Shown here one piece after another: positions 22,009-43,071 of a stretch of 64,000 nucleotides of DNA (position 1 is its first letter; each line of letters opens with the position of its first letter). This DNA is from Terriglobia bacterium (GTDB taxonomy: Bacteria > Acidobacteriota > Terriglobia > Terriglobales > Acidobacteriaceae): contig JAIQFH010000021.1 of the NCBI GenBank assembly GCA_020073385.1, forward strand, positions 1 through 64,000. Reading direction: 5' to 3'. Below the pieces are notes generated by a model that saw only the letters and a program-made list of their open reading frames with translations, was not told where the DNA came from and ran no database searches. A program made the translations under genes and the position numbers.

Positions 22009-22250
22009 TGTTTGTTTGTACGCCTAAAAAATACCCAATCTCTCTGACGTTTCTGCAAGGATTTCATAAGAAACTTGTACCGCCTTTCTTATCTAACATG
22101 ACGGCAAACCCTTTGTGGAGGTGATATCATGTGCATATCATACGTATATCAGTTATATTCAAGGGTAGTTAATGTTTGGGCGATTGTCTACGTGCGTTTC
22201 TGGTTCACGAATCGTTTGAAGAAGAGTTGAGCTATGCCGGGAATAATGAG

Positions 22251-24860
22251 ATGGCTACCGAAGATACAACTGAAGCAAAAAAGATTTCCAGGTCGGCTGT
22301 TTCTCGCCTGAAGCAAGAACGAGAGCGACGAGCTTGGACGCAAAACGAAGTTGCCGAACGTATCGGCACGACCCAGATCAACATCAGTCGTTGGGAAAAT
22401 GGCGTTACTGTTCCCAGTCCATACTATCGTCAAAGGCTTGCAGAACTTTTTGGAAAAGGCATTCAGGAACTTGGCTTAATCCCTGAGAGTAGTGAGGGAG
22501 TATCTACCTCTGCGGGTACTCCTGGCTCTCGTACCTCTACTCCTTCTTTCCCTATCTGGAACGTACCATACCGCCGCAATCCATTTTTTACAGGTCGTGA
22601 GGAGATTCTGGCTCATCTGTCTACTGTATTTAGAAACAGTAAAGCCGTCGGTTTGACCCAGGCGCTCAGTGGTTTGGGAGGAATAGGCAAGACACAGATC
22701 GCAGTTGAATACGCCTATCGCTATCGCGACCACTATCAGGCTATTTTATGGATAACCGCTTCTTCTCGTGAAGCTTGCAGTGCCGACTTCGTAATGTTAG
22801 CGGCTTTGCTAGATTTACCTGAACAGCATGGGCAGGATCATGACATAGTGATACGGGCAGTAAAGCGTTGGCTGACTACCCATACTCACTGGCTGCTTAT
22901 GCTCGACAACGTTGATGATCTGGAAATGATCGTTGACTTTTTGCCGATACACAGTACGGGAGATGTGCTGCTTACTACGCGGCTGCAAGCATTGGGAACC
23001 ATTGCTCAAAGTGTTGAAGTTGAAAAAATGGGACTGGATGAAGGCATGGAGTTTCTCTTGCGCCGCACCAAAGTGATTTCACCAGGGGCATCTCTTGATC
23101 ACGCAACGAAAAAGAGCCGGGCACAAGCAGCTGAGATCGTAGTTGCACTGGATGGATTGCCGCTTGCTCTTGATCAAGCTGGTGCATATATTGAAGAAAC
23201 ACGCTGTGGGTTAGCTCAATATCTCAATTTATACGGCACGCGTCGTAAGGAATTACTATTACGACGGGGAAGGTTTCCCATTGACCATCCAGATTCCGTT
23301 GCTGCCACCTGGTCACTCTCTTTTCAGCAGGTGGAGCAGGAGAGTCTAGCTGCCGCTGATCTACTTCGTCTATTCGCTTTTCTCAGTCCAGAAGCTATTC
23401 CGGAAGAAATCATTACGCTGGGTGCGGCAGAACTTGGTCCCCCACTGGGAGCGGCGGCGAGTGATCCTTTAAAGGTTGATAACATCATTGAGTTGTTGCT
23501 GCGCTACTCGCTTATGCGACGCACTTCCGAAGTGAAGTCCTTGAGTATCCATCGGCTGGTGCAAGCAGTTCTTAGGGATGGCATGGATAGAGACATGCAG
23601 CGTCTCTGGGCGGAACGGGTTATACGGGCAGTAAACCACGCTTTTCCCGACGTTGAACTGCAAACCTGGGAAGTGTGTCAGCGTTGTCTTCCACATGTGC
23701 AGATGTGTGCAACATATATAGAAGAATACGCACTGGCCTTTCCCGAGGCTGCTCGATTATTCAACGAGGCAGCATTGTACCTTGTAGCGCATGCAAGGTA
23801 CCAACAGGCGGAACAATTGTTACTCAAAGCTCTGGCGGTCCGTCAACAGATATTAGGAGCCGAGCATCCTGATACTGCTCGCACGCTGAACGATCTGGGA
23901 GCACTCTATCAGGATCAGGGCAAATACCAAGAGGCGGAGCCCCTATTACAGGAGGCGTTAGCGATTCGTCAACGAATGCTAGGGGGAGAGCATCCTGACG
24001 TGGCTCAAACGCTTTATAACCTGGCAAGCTTATATCGTGCGCAAGGAACCTATGTAGAAGCTGAACCATTTTATTTACGAGCTTTACATATTCGAGAGAT
24101 GGCATTAGAAATTGACCATCCTCTGGTCGCACAGAGCTATTATGGTTTAGCTAAACTGTACTATTCACAAGAGAAGTACCAACAGGCCGAAAAGTTCTGC
24201 AAGCAGGCCTTGCGCATTCAAGAACAGCGCTTAGGAGGCAATCATCCCATGATTGCTTCTACGCTGAATATGCTGGCGAAGATCTATCAAGGGCAGAATA
24301 AGCTTGATCAGGCTAAGGAAATGAATGTACATGCGTTACGGATTCGAGAGAGCACTTCGGGTGCAGATCATCCGCATGTGGCAGTCATCGTCAATAGCTT
24401 GGTTGAGATTTACCATGCCGAAGGAAGATATGGCGAAGCCCAGCCGCTGATTGCCAGGTCGCTCAGGATTCACGAGCAAGCGCTTGGCTCAGAGCATCCT
24501 TATATAGCGTACAGCCTCAGTAACCGAGCTGAAAATTTCTTCTTACAGGGGGATTACGTTCAAGCTGAGTCTTACTACAAGAAGGCTCTAGCTATTCGTG
24601 AGCAACATCTGGGTTTTAATCATCCACATACCGCTTCTACTTACGATAATCTCGCGAAGTTTTACTCCGTTTTAGAGCGGTATGAAGAAGCTGAGTCATT
24701 CTACCGTAAAGCACTATCTATCTACGAACGCGCTTTCGGGATTGACCATCCCACTGTTGTCAGCATGCTGGAACAGTACGCTACTTTACTAAAGAAGCTG
24801 AAAAGGGAGGGCGAGGCTTGTGAACTTGAGGCACGTATCCAGGAAATCAGAGGAAGGTAG
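22251..24860 (+). CDS. XRE-STAND-TPR regulator (HTH, NB-ARC, TPR)
   Basis: About 869 residues from ATG 22251; a TTG-started frame reaches 22176. The order is an XRE helix-turn-helix (WTQNEVAERIGTTQINISRW), the linker WNVPYRRNPFFTGREEIL, an NB-ARC NTPase with Walker A LSGLGGIGKTQIAVEYAYRY and Walker B HWLLMLDNVDD, a GLPLALDQAGAYI motif, then at least eight kinesin-light-chain-type TPR units of 42 residues (ALAIRQRMLGGEHPDVAQTL). STAND proteins are switch ATPases in which repeats sense a ligand or partner. In Ktedonobacteria such XRE-linked forms are abundant and may be transcription regulators or defence-like sensors. No effector enzyme domain is fused. Confidence 0.88.
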   Translation: MATEDTTEAKKISRSAVSRLKQERERRAWTQNEVAERIGTTQINISRWENGVTVPSPYYRQRLAELFGKGIQELGLIPESSEGVSTSAGTPGSRTSTPSFPIWNVPYRRNPFFTGREEILAHLSTVFRNSKAVGLTQALSGLGGIGKTQIAVEYAYRYRDHYQAILWITASSREACSADFVMLAALLDLPEQHGQDHDIVIRAVKRWLTTHTHWLLMLDNVDDLEMIVDFLPIHSTGDVLLTTRLQALGTIAQSVEVEKMGLDEGMEFLLRRTKVISPGASLDHATKKSRAQAAEIVVALDGLPLALDQAGAYIEETRCGLAQYLNLYGTRRKELLLRRGRFPIDHPDSVAATWSLSFQQVEQESLAAADLLRLFAFLSPEAIPEEIITLGAAELGPPLGAAASDPLKVDNIIELLLRYSLMRRTSEVKSLSIHRLVQAVLRDGMDRDMQRLWAERVIRAVNHAFPDVELQTWEVCQRCLPHVQMCATYIEEYALAFPEAARLFNEAALYLVAHARYQQAEQLLLKALAVRQQILGAEHPDTARTLNDLGALYQDQGKYQEAEPLLQEALAIRQRMLGGEHPDVAQTLYNLASLYRAQGTYVEAEPFYLRALHIREMALEIDHPLVAQSYYGLAKLYYSQEKYQQAEKFCKQALRIQEQRLGGNHPMIASTLNMLAKIYQGQNKLDQAKEMNVHALRIRESTSGADHPHVAVIVNSLVEIYHAEGRYGEAQPLIARSLRIHEQALGSEHPYIAYSLSNRAENFFLQGDYVQAESYYKKALAIREQHLGFNHPHTASTYDNLAKFYSVLERYEEAESFYRKALSIYERAFGIDHPTVVSMLEQYATLLKKLKREGEACELEARIQEIRGR

Positions 24861-29166: not shown

Positions 29167-30876
29167 CTATTGAGCGAGGTAGATGTTGGCCCAGTCTTCT
29201 GTTGCTAGAGCACCCAGCGAGTTAATTCTCCAGTTTTGCAGTTTGGGGTTGACCGAGTACACGTAAGATGATTGGTACGTCGTGATCCAGCCTACATCAT
29301 TGACGATTTTCTGTTCGGCATCATTGTAGAGTTTTATGCGTGTCGCGTTATCACTCTCTCCATCGGCCTGGGCCATTTCAGCTTGTACAGCCTGTTGTTG
29401 CGCGGCATCGGACGAATTGTTCTGACCATAGTTAAACGTGTTGTGGTCAGTGCCTTTGCCGAAGAAGAGGGTCAGCCAGTCCTGTGGATCGGGATAGTCT
29501 GCTCCCCAGTTTCCATACCACATCTGTAATGGGCCACTATGCCCAACAGTGTCAGCTTCCTGCTTGATCAAATCCGTGCCATGAACACCGATCAGTTTGA
29601 CGGAGATGCCAAGCACTTGCTTCCATTCGTTCGCGATCGCTGAGATGGTATCTGCCCCAGCCTTGTAGTCGATAGAGTAGGTTATGCTGATGGAAGGCAG
29701 CTGACTCAAGCTGCTATAGCCAGCCTCCTGCAAACCTTGCTGCAAGAGCTGCTTAGCCTTTGCCTGGTCGCCTGTTGTACCCCTCACTCCAGCCGGCCCG
29801 GTCAGGTTCGGATTGTAGCCGGGTATGCCCTTGGGCACGATATGGTTGCTCGGAGTTACAAATTTTCCTATGATGTGATTGATGATCAGGTCTTTGTTGA
29901 TCGCGAGCGCGAAGGCCTGACGGATTTTAATGTTGTCCAGTGGCTTTGAGAGGTAATTCAGGCCAATAAATCGGCTCGCCAGAGCTGGAACCACCTGGTA
30001 ACCAGGTTTTGTTGCGGCAACCTCGTCCTGGCTGGGTGGAACGGGAGCAAGATCGAACTGACCAACCTGGAATGCCTTGTAGTTGCTATCTCTATCAGCA
30101 GCGATGATGTACTGAATTTCCGTGAGTTTGGGTTGGAAGCCGAAGTAATAGGGATTGGGCACAAGCACAAGACCCGTGGTATGACTATAGCTCTTCACCT
30201 TAAACGGTCCACAACCGCCGCCTTCCTCCAGGTGATCTGTCCATGTGTTGCCATATTTATCGATCAGCTTTTTCTCGACAACAAAGGAAGTGGAATAAGA
30301 CAATGCTCCCAGGAAATATGCTGCTGGTTTGCTGAGAACAATAGAGATGGTCTTGTCATCTTTGACGATCAGGCTGTCTCCAATGAGAGTGGGAATTGTA
30401 CCTGACGTAACCTTGTCAAAATCCTTGAGCAGCGAGAGATACACTCTGACATCAGATTGCGTGGCTGGCAGAAGGGTGCGGTTGATGCTGTAGGCCACAT
30501 CTGAAGCGGTAAGAGGCGTGCCATCGCTGAATTTGAGATTAGGCCTGAGCGTAAAGGTGTAAGTCAGGCCATCTGATGAGACCGAGTGGGAAGCTGCGAG
30601 TTGATCAATGATAGAGCCATCATCCTGGGTAGTTACCAGGCCATTAAAAATAATATTGTAGGGGTCTCCTAAACCACCAGAGGTAAGAGCTGGATCGAGC
30701 GAGTCAAAGTCACCCCCTTCTAGTGGTATGTGCAAGATTTGTTTATCAGCCGGTGCGGCGGCTGGATTTTTTTGCGTTGACGGAGTACTAGCGCCACCGC
30801 AGGCGGCGATAAAGAGAGAGAGTGCGCATAGAATACTCAACAGGCTTGCTAACCTCAACTTCTTCTTCGGTTGCAT
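29167..30876 (-). CDS. Peptide ABC transporter substrate-binding lipoprotein (SBP_bac_5)
   Basis: A 569-residue secreted lipoprotein. The signal peptide reads KKKLRLASLLSILCALSLFI with the lipobox IAAC, so the mature Cys is near residue 26. The family-5 core includes FDSLDPALTSGGLGDPYNII, TFTLRPNLKFSDGTPLTASD and RQAFALAINKDLII. The start at 30876 (MQPKKK) is chosen because AAAGGAG lies eight bases upstream; the longer frame from 30915 would put that site inside the gene. It is the first gene of the importer operon. It binds peptides or related solutes in the outer compartment. Confidence 0.92.
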   Translation of the reverse strand: MQPKKKLRLASLLSILCALSLFIAACGGASTPSTQKNPAAAPADKQILHIPLEGGDFDSLDPALTSGGLGDPYNIIFNGLVTTQDDGSIIDQLAASHSVSSDGLTYTFTLRPNLKFSDGTPLTASDVAYSINRTLLPATQSDVRVYLSLLKDFDKVTSGTIPTLIGDSLIVKDDKTISIVLSKPAAYFLGALSYSTSFVVEKKLIDKYGNTWTDHLEEGGGCGPFKVKSYSHTTGLVLVPNPYYFGFQPKLTEIQYIIAADRDSNYKAFQVGQFDLAPVPPSQDEVAATKPGYQVVPALASRFIGLNYLSKPLDNIKIRQAFALAINKDLIINHIIGKFVTPSNHIVPKGIPGYNPNLTGPAGVRGTTGDQAKAKQLLQQGLQEAGYSSLSQLPSISITYSIDYKAGADTISAIANEWKQVLGISVKLIGVHGTDLIKQEADTVGHSGPLQMWYGNWGADYPDPQDWLTLFFGKGTDHNTFNYGQNNSSDAAQQQAVQAEMAQADGESDNATRIKLYNDAEQKIVNDVGWITTYQSSYVYSVNPKLQNWRINSLGALATEDWANIYLAQ

Positions 30877-31004
30877 ATGTAGCATCTCCTTTGTCACGAA
30901 AAATACTTGCAACATGGTTGTGCTCTAATGTAAGATTCTCCAGGGCCGAACTTACTCTCAGGTATTCTCTTCCCAAAAGCACCTCCTTCGTTTTCCATAA
31001 AAAT

Positions 31005-31052
31005 GCGGCGTGGGTACCCTCCTGCCTTCAGGCGGAGGGAGGAAACGCCGCC
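31005..31052. repeat. Terminal hairpin at the 3' end of the IscB element
   Basis: CCCTCCTGCC (31017-31026), loop TTCA, then GGCGGAGGG (31031-31039) fold with one bulged T. A surrounding GCGGCG/CGCCGC pair extends the stem. The hairpin overlaps the last codons of the iscB-like gene. Such hairpins mark right ends of IS200/IS605-type elements. Confidence 0.6.
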
Positions 31053-31858
31053 TCCTTTCCTTGCTGATAGGTATAGCCATCACTGCGTGCGACAAGGACA
31101 CAGAAGCGATGATGAATGTCGGTGACGACGCCGTGCGCAGTGGTGATGTTGAAGGTACCACGGGTACGCACGGCGACTTTGCCGACATAGGTTCCCTGCT
31201 TGGTCCCACTTGTGACGACGGATCGCACGAGGTCACCCGTCTGGAACCCCTGCACCCGCTTGTGCTGTTTGGAGCCGGTACGCGGAAAACCGTACTTGTC
31301 CATGCGGCACATCTGCCTAGATCCGTGCCCAGTCGCTCTAATCTGCAATGGAACGACGTTCTTGATGATGAGGGACTCTGGTGTGCTTGTGCCCACACAC
31401 ACTGCATCCAACCAATGCGTTTTGGGCAGTTCTCGCGTGACTCGGTTGAACTTCGTGCGACCCCCTGTACCGCTTTCTAGTGGCAGTCCCAACGTCTGTA
31501 AATGACGGTAGAGTTCCCATCGTGTTGCGTTGACTCCCGCCGCATCTTTGAGCGGAGTCTTTGCCTGGGCGAGAATACGCTTGAGCACTTCTGGCTTCTT
31601 AGCAAGAAACTCCTTAGCCCAGACCACTTCACCCGTGGCATCGTTGACAATTGCCATGCCTGTGGTTTTGCTCCCAGGGTCAATCTTTAGTCGTAGTGGA
31701 GGCGTTGTTGGTGCCTCTACTACCTTTTTCAAAATGATGGTAAAAGGGTACTGCCGAAACACCGCTGCTTTTCCACTAGAAAGCAGTTTCCTTGCTCCTC
31801 CTGGGTGAACAGGTGCGAGCGAATGTTTGTTCGTATCCAAGACAAAGACTTTACTCAT
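31028..31858 (-). CDS. iscB: IscB-like protein lacking bridge helix, RuvC-II and HNH
   Basis: IscB is the transposon-encoded ancestor of Cas9. This 276-residue copy keeps the N-terminal PLMP domain (MSKVFVLDTNKHSLAPVHPG), RuvC-I (LRLKIDPGSKTTGMAI, Asp about 60), and the post-HNH part: KTPLKDAAGVNATRWELYR, GGRTKFNR, and RuvC-III in KTHWLDAVCVG (Asp about 151), followed by the C-terminal domain. Usual IscB proteins have about 400-450 residues. Here GEVVWAKE runs directly into FLAKKPEVLKRILAQAK, so the Arg-rich bridge helix, RuvC-II with its Glu, and the whole HNH domain are gone without a frame break. DNA cleavage is therefore unlikely; RNA or DNA binding may survive. Chance decay is the simple alternative. 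Confidence 0.85.
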   Translation of the reverse strand: MSKVFVLDTNKHSLAPVHPGGARKLLSSGKAAVFRQYPFTIILKKVVEAPTTPPLRLKIDPGSKTTGMAIVNDATGEVVWAKEFLAKKPEVLKRILAQAKTPLKDAAGVNATRWELYRHLQTLGLPLESGTGGRTKFNRVTRELPKTHWLDAVCVGTSTPESLIIKNVVPLQIRATGHGSRQMCRMDKYGFPRTGSKQHKRVQGFQTGDLVRSVVTSGTKQGTYVGKVAVRTRGTFNITTAHGVVTDIHHRFCVLVARSDGYTYQQGKEAAFPPSA

Positions 31859-31861
31859 GAC

Positions 31862-32170
31862 TCATCCTTTGTGTTGTGCCCATGAGGGCCTCTGGTGACC
31901 CAGGTAATGCTCACCTCGTCAACGTTGAGGGAAGGTTTAGCGTACAAGACACTGGCTTTACCCCGTCAACCGGTTTAATCCTGCACCGTAGAGGTCCAAG
32001 ATGGTGAAGCACTTGGACGTACCTAGTTTCTTCCCAAACGGAGCCCCGTTAGCCTCAAAGAGGCTAGTGGCTGAGACTGGTCAAGATGAGGCTTCCTCTT
32101 GCGAGCAAGCCTGTCCCCTTGCAGGGGGCGGGTTCCTGACAGTTATCAACTCTTTCGTCACATTGACCAA
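31862..32170 (-). ncRNA. Candidate omega RNA upstream of the IscB-like gene
   Basis: In IscB elements the guide RNA lies just 5' of iscB. This region, on the same strand and directly upstream, has several perfect stems: GTCCAAG/CTTGGAC (31994-32000, 32012-32018), TAGCCTC-AAA-GAGGCTA (32050-32066), GGCTT/AAGCC (about 32090-32112) and CCCCTTGCAGGGG (about 32116-32128). No ORF of note is present. The position and structure fit, but the identity is not proved by sequence alone. The guide end would lie at the upstream (higher-coordinate) edge. Confidence 0.55.
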
Positions 32171-32414: not shown

Positions 32415-33251
32415 ATGAGTGCCAATGAGTATGTCAAATTCTGGCACGATACTACGCTGAGCAATCTTGAGCTTCTGCGTGCTACCTATGTCACGCACTC
32501 CTTTGCTCCCCACGCGCACGAGGGCTATGTGATAGGCGTCATTGAACAAGGCGCAGAGCAGTTTGAATATCGGAGAAGCAGGCACATAGCGCCAACCGGA
32601 AGCATTGTGTTTATCAATCCTGGAGAAGTGCATACCGGTTCGTCCGCAACCGATCACGGTTGGACCTATAGGACGCTCTACCCACCGGTTGAGTTGTTAC
32701 AGCGTGCCGTGTGTGATCTCGCCGGTCGGCAGCGCGATATCCCTTTCTTTGCTGAACCTGTGGTTCATGATGCTGAGATGATGATGGAAATCTCTCTCGC
32801 ACATCGTGCCATAGAAGAACAAACGTCTGCCCTCGAAAGGGAAGCGCGGCTCTTATGGACGCTTGCCCGCTTAATTGTGCGCTATGCCGACGATCATCCG
32901 CGTCTGCGTCCACTCACGAAAGAGCATCTGGGCATCCAGCGCGTTCGCTCCTATCTCGAGGAAAACTACGCCGAGAACATCTCCCTCGCAGAGTTGGCCT
33001 CGATTGCTCATCTCAGCCCGTTTCACCTGCTCCGTTCGTTTAGAAACCAGGTGAATCTGCCTCCTCATGCCTATCAGATACAGATACGCATTACGCATGC
33101 CAAGCAGATGTTACGGATGGGTATGTCGTGCGTGGACACCGCACTCGCCGTGGGCTTTGCGGACCAGAGCCACTTCACCAAACACTTCAAGCGCATTGTC
33201 GGCGTGCCTCCCGGACTGTACGGCGGGGCTCACAAAAAAGAGCAATATTAG
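32415..33251 (+). CDS. AraC-family transcriptional regulator with cupin-like sensor
   Basis: A 278-residue regulator. Residues 1-150 form an AraC-type N-terminal beta barrel (FAPHAHEGYVIGVIEQG, VFINPGEVHTG). Residues about 175-270 hold the two helix-turn-helix motifs: ISLAELASIAHLSPFHLLRS and CVDTALAVGFADQSHFTKHF. The gene lies 16 bases upstream of azlC on the same strand. AraC proteins of this type commonly control adjacent azlCD exporters, so branched-chain amino acid sensing is a reasonable inference. Confidence 0.9.
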   Translation: MSANEYVKFWHDTTLSNLELLRATYVTHSFAPHAHEGYVIGVIEQGAEQFEYRRSRHIAPTGSIVFINPGEVHTGSSATDHGWTYRTLYPPVELLQRAVCDLAGRQRDIPFFAEPVVHDAEMMMEISLAHRAIEEQTSALEREARLLWTLARLIVRYADDHPRLRPLTKEHLGIQRVRSYLEENYAENISLAELASIAHLSPFHLLRSFRNQVNLPPHAYQIQIRITHAKQMLRMGMSCVDTALAVGFADQSHFTKHFKRIVGVPPGLYGGAHKKEQY

Positions 33252-33267
33252 ACAAGACAATCCTCTC

Positions 33268-33984
33268 ATGGCTGTCTATAATGGCGCTATGACAACGCTA
33301 CGTTCTGAATTCTTGCATGGTATCAGGGACGAACTTCCGATCCTGATCGGTGTGTTGCCTTTCGGTATGATCTATGGAGTGTCAGCGCTCAGTGCGGGTA
33401 TTCCGGCGAGTAGTGCGCAGGCCATGTCATGTATCGTCTTCGCGGGTTCGGCGCAATTCGTGATCGCCCAGCTCATTGCGACTGGCACGCCTTCACTTGT
33501 CGTCATCCTGACGGCCTTTATCGTGAATATCCGGCATATGCTCTATAGCGCTTCGGTGGCGGCCTACACCAGCAAGCTCCATCCTCTCTGGAAGTGGCTG
33601 CTGGCGTACCTCTTGACTGATGAGGCCTATGCGGTGGCCATCTCACACTATCAGAAGGCTGGAGATGACATGCAGAAGCACTGGTATTTTCTGGGAGCCG
33701 GGCTCGCATTGTGGACGACTTGGCAACTGAGTACGGCCGCAGGTATTTTCCTGGGAGGGCACATCCCAGCGAGCTGGTCACTTGACTTCGCAGCGACGCT
33801 CACCTTTATCGCGCTGGTTGTGCCTGCGCTCAAGGATAACGCCAGTACAGCTGCAGCGCTGACTGCCGCATTGACTGCGTTGCTTGCCATTGCACTGCCG
33901 CTGAAGCTAGGGATAGCCGTGGCGGCGCTGTTTGGCATGGCTGTTGGTCTCTCTCTGGAGATGAAGAAGAACAGGGACCGATAG
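33268..33984 (+). CDS. azlC: AzlC-type branched-chain amino acid exporter, large subunit
   Basis: A 238-residue membrane protein of the AzlC family. The signature stretch is LPFGMIYGVSALSAG, then CIVFAGSAQFVIAQLIATG and FIVNIRHMLYSASVA. About seven or eight membrane helices are evident. AzlC works with AzlD to export leucine-like amino acids and analogues. Start codons at 33268 and 33289 are both in frame and neither has a strong ribosome site; coupling to the upstream araC gene is possible. azlD follows 13 bases later. Confidence 0.9.
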   Translation: MAVYNGAMTTLRSEFLHGIRDELPILIGVLPFGMIYGVSALSAGIPASSAQAMSCIVFAGSAQFVIAQLIATGTPSLVVILTAFIVNIRHMLYSASVAAYTSKLHPLWKWLLAYLLTDEAYAVAISHYQKAGDDMQKHWYFLGAGLALWTTWQLSTAAGIFLGGHIPASWSLDFAATLTFIALVVPALKDNASTAAALTAALTALLAIALPLKLGIAVAALFGMAVGLSLEMKKNRDR

Positions 33985-33997
33985 CAAGGAGGAGGGG

Positions 33998-34330
33998 ATG
34001 TCACTGGGTTTACTGTGGATGACCATCATCATTGTGGGACTGCTGACCCTTGGTATTCGCCTGTCTTTCATCGTATTCATGCACAAGGCGCGGATCTCGC
34101 CAATGGTGCAGCAGGCTCTGCGCTTCGTACCTGTCGCTGTGCTGTCAGCGCTCATCGCTCCCGCGCTCTTCTTCCCTAGAGGCTCAATGGATCTCTCGCC
34201 TGGGAATATCCGGCTCATTGCGGGAGTACTGGCGATACTGGTAGCTTGGCGTACAAAGAATGTTCTGCTGACAATTGTCGTGGGTATGGCCTGCTTACTG
34301 ATCTTGCAGGCCTTTGTAGCACCTCGTTGA
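33998..34330 (+). CDS. azlD: AzlD-type branched-chain amino acid exporter, small subunit
   Basis: A 110-residue protein with four membrane helices (LLWMTIIIVGLLTLGIRLSF, FVPVAVLSALIAPALFF, LIAGVLAILVAWRT, LTIVVGMACLLILQAF). The size and the Arg in helix one match AzlD. It follows azlC, and a GGAGGGG ribosome site precedes the ATG. It completes a three-gene unit with the AraC regulator. Confidence 0.9.
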   Translation: MSLGLLWMTIIIVGLLTLGIRLSFIVFMHKARISPMVQQALRFVPVAVLSALIAPALFFPRGSMDLSPGNIRLIAGVLAILVAWRTKNVLLTIVVGMACLLILQAFVAPR

Positions 34331-42112: not shown

Positions 42113-43071
42113 GTGAGATCCGCGCCAATTAACAGCGCACGTTCACGCATGCCTGATAATCCCATGCCAAATTGTTCATCTTGGCTTTGTCCGAACGATG
42201 CCTACTTTCTACTTTCGTTTGGTTCCTGCTGGGCACCATCTTGGAAGCCGTGTTCTTCTTTGCCAAGGCTACAGCGCATTCCGAGCACGGCCTGATTATG
42301 CGCATCGCGCTGATCGATGGTCCGCTACGAGACATCCAGTTGCTCGGCTTCGCGGCATTGATCATCGCTGGCGTGAGCCAGCGCTTCGTGCCCCACGTCT
42401 ATGGTCTCGGGAAACCCGTGCATGATCGCCAGAGGCTGATCTTCTGGTTGATCAACGGCAGCCTGCTGCTAAACATCATCAACTATGTGCTGCTGCTCAC
42501 CACACACAACCTCTATTTCGCCATCGGCCTGGAGTTAGCATATCTGCTCATGCCGCTGTGGGCCGTGTTGCTGGCCGTGCAGATCGGGGTGTTCCGGAGG
42601 CCGACGCAGCCGGATCGCACTTTCAAGTTCATTCGTGCCGCTTACATTTGGTTGGTAATCGCGTGCGGCATGATGCCGTTCTTTCCACTCTACGGGGTGC
42701 TAACCCATCAGCTGTTCGCGCACACGTATATGGGTTCTCATCGGCACGCATTCACCGTGGGCTTCATCAGCATGATGATCCTGGGAGTCTCTTCGCGCGT
42801 TGTGCCCATCCTGGCGGGAATCGATGCGAAGCGAATGAACTCACTGTGGGCGCCGTTCTTGCTGTTCAACGTGGGCTGTACCGCACGAGTGCTTTTGCAG
42901 ATTTTGACGGATTTCGTACCCAACGTGGCTTACCCGCTGATCGGCTTCACCGGGTTCATCGAATTAAGCGCCTTGCTGTGGTGGGGAATCGAGTTGTGGC
43001 GAACCATGAACGTCGCCAGAACCCGTCACGCCAATATGGTGAGGGCTCCGTTTCCCCTGGCGGCACGGTAA
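42113..43071 (+). CDS. NnrS-like heme-copper-type membrane protein, frameshift near start
   Basis: The body (from 42172) is a 299-residue protein with about eight membrane helices. Conserved features include FFAKATAHSEHG, DGPLRDIQLLGFAALIIAG and SHRHAFTVGFISMMILGVSS, the His-rich helix of the NnrS family. NnrS proteins protect against nitric-oxide stress. The frame from 42172 begins with TTG and has a stop 15 bases upstream. A second frame from GTG 42113, with AGAGG upstream, would join it if one A were added in CAAATTG at about 42169, giving a more natural N-terminus. It is either a frameshift mutation, a sequencing error, or a TTG start. Confidence 0.7.

Follow-up and report, generated by a model that had tools for sequence, protein, structure and literature searches.

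A probable decayed copy of an IscB/HEARO element in which the middle of iscB has been lost in frame

An iscB gene that has lost its middle without losing its reading frame may encode a nuclease-dead protein with a new role, or may simply be what remains of a mobile element. This question is raised by a locus near the middle of a 64,000-nucleotide stretch of contig JAIQFH010000021.1 (hereafter the window), from an assembly assigned to a Terriglobia bacterium (GCA_020073385.1). There, a truncated iscB open reading frame (ORF) lies beside a full-length omega RNA. An earlier note on this DNA had proposed an IscB that no longer cuts but may still bind RNA and act as an RNA-guided repressor, with chance decay as an equal possibility. 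In our view, the locus is probably a single internally deleted, decayed copy of an IscB/HEARO element from a Ktedonobacteria-like bacterium.

The ORF was aligned to a complete IscB relative of 438 residues (P0002), whose residues 1-81 and 244-438 are kept and whose residues 82-243 (162 residues) are missing in frame:

31028..31858, minus strand: internally deleted iscB ORF, 276 residues plus stop, without internal stop
31616..31858, minus strand: N-terminal part (residues 1-81) with the PLMP domain and RuvC-I, aligned to residues 1-81 of P0002 and matched by PF14239
31615..31616, minus strand: junction of GEVVWA with KEFLAKK, from the alignment to P0002, its position uncertain by about one residue
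31031..31615, minus strand: C-terminal part with RuvC-III and the C-terminal WED/TAM-interacting region, aligned to residues 244-438 of P0002

The bridge helix, the REC linker, the RuvC-II glutamate and the HNH domain are absent from the ORF with the missing segment, and no HNH family of Pfam was listed for it at E-values up to 10. PF14239 (PLMP/RRXRR) is matched with 84 bits. The RuvC-I aspartate and the RuvC-III HxxD are present in the motifs KIDPGS and KTHWLDA, which we take to represent RuvC-I and RuvC-III, respectively. With the NCBIfam guided_IscB model the ORF scores 162.2 bits, below the cut-off of 175. The domains described as lost or kept in the earlier note are borne out by these results, as is the absence of a frame break, whereas the deletion is slightly larger than the 150 or so residues given there. 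As also expected in that note, the product should be nuclease-dead, judging from the absence of the HNH and RuvC-II segment. The lost segment is the part that anchors the guide seed, together with part of the RuvC core.

The rest of the element is present, as seen by comparison with related loci. A HEARO search of 47 genomes from the class of a Dictyobacter genome gave at least 251 matches in 32 of them, and 140 loci were taken from the listed, higher-scoring places, irrespective of reading frame and leaving out some identical copies and some places cut by contig ends. The following features could be delimited in the window:

31904..32140, minus strand: full-length HEARO/omega RNA (RF02033, Rfam), the first base of which is the left end of the element
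30995..31039, minus strand: right end of the element, with a hairpin at 31017-31039 (read from the sequence) and terminal TTTTTATGG(A), based on multi-copy complete elements
32141..32157, minus strand: flanking DNA directly 5' of the left end, the would-be guide of the omega RNA, its length assumed

The upstream stems pointed out in the earlier note do belong to an omega RNA: the covariance model RF02033 is matched from position 1 to 211 of 211 (110.3 bits, E 7.2e-22), upstream of the ORF on the same strand and 45 nucleotides from its start codon, and is the sole Rfam match above the gathering score in the window. This score is lower than those of two omega RNAs adjoining a complete iscB (124.8 bits in L261 and 123.4 in L267), but no decay is visible, since the number of non-standard (broken) pairs in the alignment is similar (nine, versus seven and ten, respectively). 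In nearly all of the 140 loci HEARO starts with GTCA or GTGA, and the sequence 5' of this start differs at almost every one of them, the RNA starting directly there; this puts the left end at 32140, with the would-be guide in the DNA beyond it, and the guide has no match in the window except its own place. The right end, a hairpin and a short tail common to near-identical copies elsewhere, is the same in the window at about 30995. The whole element spans about 30995 to 32140, in rough agreement with the 31028-32170 first proposed, and with both ends found, the loss is confined to the middle of the gene. A promoter scan was uninformative (two weak matches versus 0.9 expected by chance).

Omega RNAs commonly stand next to a broken iscB. 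A complete iscB, taken as an ORF of at least 380 residues with an alignment to P0002 exceeding 300 residues, is present in 89 of the 140 loci and absent from 51. Five of the latter are merely cut by contig ends, 13 have no match to the iscB panel, 13 match only about the first 43-51 iscB codons, and the remainder have changes of frame, inserted introns, a truncation or a match that is full-length but broken.

No listed homologue shares the deletion seen in the window. Two protein searches, one considering the best 120 of 7598 matches (8000 candidates scored) and one, with the first 165 residues as query and complete IscBs too long to qualify, the best 120 of 984, together gave 238 distinct listed proteins. 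An internal part of P0002 is missing and both ends are kept in 31 of them, the window included, but these form no conserved nuclease-dead clade of the TldR type: 23 lose HNH, at 22 distinct junctions, and the 30 others include none in which both borders fall 5 residues or fewer from those of the window's ORF, so that the homologue sharing the junction, whose absence the earlier note had itself named as speaking against its proposal, was not found in this list. The list can hold in-frame cases only and is therefore silent on any preference for frame. In-frame products with both ends joined and part of the middle lost, each with its own junction, are L013/L313, L014/L390, L090, L239, P0121, P0122 and P0125. 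Those found in a first genome scan of 80 loci (L013, which is the same as L313, L014 and L090) come from a set biased towards deletions, because it was ranked by similarity to the deleted protein. In a survey of 15 cyanobacterial genomes (92 matches to the N-terminal part, of which 16 places were examined, 15 shorter frames and an ordinary one, leaving out seven weaker short-frame matches), only L390 keeps both ends without the middle, in frame; it is not an unbiased case, because it is L014, whose genome was included knowing of that deletion.

The two halves also bear on the age of the deletion. The closest listed relative of the N-terminal part, P0130 (96%, 78/81 residues), departs from IscB past the HNH codons CAYC, continuing as VTPV..., and that of the C-terminal part, P0077 (99%, 192/194 residues), begins with MLRRTVTTLR just ahead of the remaining HNH. 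Similar tails are found in L022, where a group II intron (RF00029) lies between the halves, and in L269 the gene is divided by a group II intron that carries a reverse transcriptase ORF. P0130 and P0077, compared as proteins and possibly derived from different genes, resemble fragments of iscB genes interrupted at the HNH codons, as a group II intron would do. Because the nearest relatives of both halves look split in this way, the deletion seems young, and the mere three and two amino-acid differences leave selection little time to have become visible. In L022, L217 (the same element as L022), L231, L269, L285 and L300, iscB is interrupted by group II introns, at the HNH codons CAYC, near NATRW in RuvC-III or near codon 46; RF00029 is matched in L022, L269 and L285, and reverse-transcriptase-like ORFs are present in L231, L269 and L300.

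Given these split-looking relatives, the parent iscB of the decayed copy was probably already interrupted by a group II intron, and a chance deletion would have removed the middle of the gene. The 276-residue product would be an inactive remnant; the omega RNA, if transcribed, would depend on an intact IscB from elsewhere in the cell, and mobility of the element would require enzymes acting in trans.

Several observations weigh against simple decay or limit the case for it. Deleted forms are not all singletons, as P0154, a 233-residue IscB in which residue 97 is joined to 303, stands for seven members on seven contigs and may have spread. The PLMP and C-terminal regions are retained in the window, and OgeuIscB without HNH alone is reported to have still formed the complex whose structure was solved (PMC9640706), so some RNA binding may be possible. 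The structure models, both of low confidence, show a weak fold (compared with top Foldseek chains only, among which an absence carries no meaning), and the ratio of nonsynonymous to synonymous substitution rates (dN/dS) is mostly saturated and gives no verdict on selection after the deletion. Finally, three of the four large internal deletions in the 140 loci are in frame (L239, L296 and L313) and one is not (L346). At a chance of one third, the probability of at least three of four is 0.11, and that of three of three, without L346, which also lacks the C-terminal end, is 0.037. L239 shows a frame change near its start and is counted in frame because its frame runs through with an alternative start. 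The deleted segments differ (about residue 44 joined to 236, 89 to 209 and 282 to 431), and from four cases protection of the frame can be neither demonstrated nor dismissed. The intact frame, which the earlier note took as the argument for function, is accordingly a weak argument, yet not a refuted one.

Among the alternatives, a non-autonomous element, in which the protein is irrelevant, an intact IscB works in trans with the omega RNA and the copy is kept by its transposon family, is unlikely but fares best. Both ends and the omega RNA are present, and the two sets of 13 loci with a very short or no iscB match point the same way, but no second copy of the window's deleted form was found among the genomes and matches listed; this explanation overlaps with that of a decayed copy, from which only the claimed upkeep sets it apart. 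In eleven loci (L331, L333, L335, L336, L339, L340, L343, L345, L349, L350 and L352), spread over three genomes, an omega RNA is followed by only the first 43-51 iscB codons, and this set looks like a family of non-autonomous omega-RNA elements.

An assembly artefact, in which two different iscB copies were joined by the assembler, is rather improbable. It would be favored by the repeated nature of iscB, by the different closest relatives of the halves (P0130 and P0077) and by the contig itself, which joins two kinds of DNA near 42.19 kb. However, the P0001 cluster occurs on two contigs (the second possibly from the same data), both halves fit one kind of split lineage, and comparable deletions are found in other assemblies.

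The neighbors of the element are the following:

29167..30915, minus strand: OppA-like peptide-binding protein, outside the element, named by appearance
32415..33251, plus strand: AraC-type regulator, outside the element

The OppA-like protein shares 64% identity with proteins from two genomes of Dictyobacter, whereas in the assembly's own genus, searched in 44 other genomes, its matches of more than 180 residues reach only about 24-34%. The contig is of mixed origin. In steps of 5 kb, the tetranucleotide profile from about 6 to 43 kb is nearer to Ktedonobacteria than to the remaining contigs of the assembly; it is undecided over the first 9 kb, and from 42 kb on it clearly sides with those contigs. 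An NnrS-like gene at 42172 is 98% identical to that of a genome of the same genus (G011), but only from residue 8 onward, the frame in G011 being longer (523 residues); it is absent from four of five same-genus genomes examined, and the NnrS-like gene that follows it matches G011 with 96% identity across 426 residues. Judged by composition and similarity, the window switches near 42.19 kb from Ktedonobacteria-like DNA to that of another bacterial genus, cutting the NnrS-like gene. The simplest reading is probably an assembly misjoin; a real transfer is possible. Because of this mixture, the counts for the assembly's own genome (one close IscB and one HEARO) and for 60 relatives (0 of 60) do not describe the source of the element, and a lone horizontally acquired copy, suggested by such counts, was dropped. 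No empty site was found among six loci with OppA relatives, where AraC and AzlC had no match, and the element flanks matched only loci from the window's own contig. An AzlC-type transporter gene and a small ORF lie directly downstream of the AraC-type regulator (33067-34330), and an 894-residue protein with a helix-turn-helix domain, NB-ARC and many tetratricopeptide repeats, resembling a STAND-type regulator, is encoded at 22176-24860.

It is very doubtful that IscBs repeatedly lose their core in frame to become short RNA-binding remnants (PLMP and C-terminal domains) kept for holding or protecting the omega RNA or for competing with intact IscB for it, although such a process would be compatible with the three in-frame cases of four beside omega RNAs and with the many in-frame products of independent origin. 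TldR proteins are linked to opp genes. Least credible is the domesticated nuclease-dead IscB of the earlier note, which would bind its omega RNA and block transcription at guide-matched sites like TldR: the frame is open, the omega RNA full, the PLMP and C-terminal regions are kept, in-frame deletions recur and the element sits between an opp-like operon and an AraC gene, but no deleted family among the listed proteins has the window junction and nearly all junctions differ, the bridge helix and REC linker with the seed-anchoring part are gone, the predicted fold is weak, the guide matches only its own place within the window, broken copies are common, and both element ends are still present, hence no sign of domestication.

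Were the protein functional, it would be to IscB what TldR is to TnpB. As decay, the locus illustrates how IscB elements lose their nuclease, by changes of frame, insertion of group II introns and internal deletion, and that the omega RNA and the ends outlast it; short "mini-IscB" entries in databases call for caution, since such proteins can be fragments left by a deletion or by an intron. In titles and abstract openings, a partial coverage that supports no claim of absence, we found nothing on deleted or nuclease-dead natural IscB beyond IsrB, nor on introns in iscB; an IStron survey (PMC4227781; terms "IscB" and "group II intron") lies outside this coverage.

Like the IscB/HEARO (OMEGA) systems, the window has PLMP, RuvC-I, RuvC-III, the C-terminal region, an upstream omega RNA and both element ends, but it lacks the bridge helix, REC linker, RuvC-II and HNH and falls under the NCBIfam IscB cut-off. 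IsrB (PMC9581776) is a short HNH-less protein with an omega RNA; it retains both the bridge helix and the whole of the split RuvC and acts as a DNA nickase. The window resembles it in the short protein, the omega RNA and the absence of HNH, but is not an IsrB, having lost the bridge helix and RuvC-II. TldR proteins are nuclease-dead TnpB repressors tied to host genes, in which guide RNA and DNA binding are apparently kept (PMC13418256). The window is similar in its nuclease-dead product and retained guide RNA, whereas TldR belongs to another protein family and the window holds one isolated copy with its core cut out.
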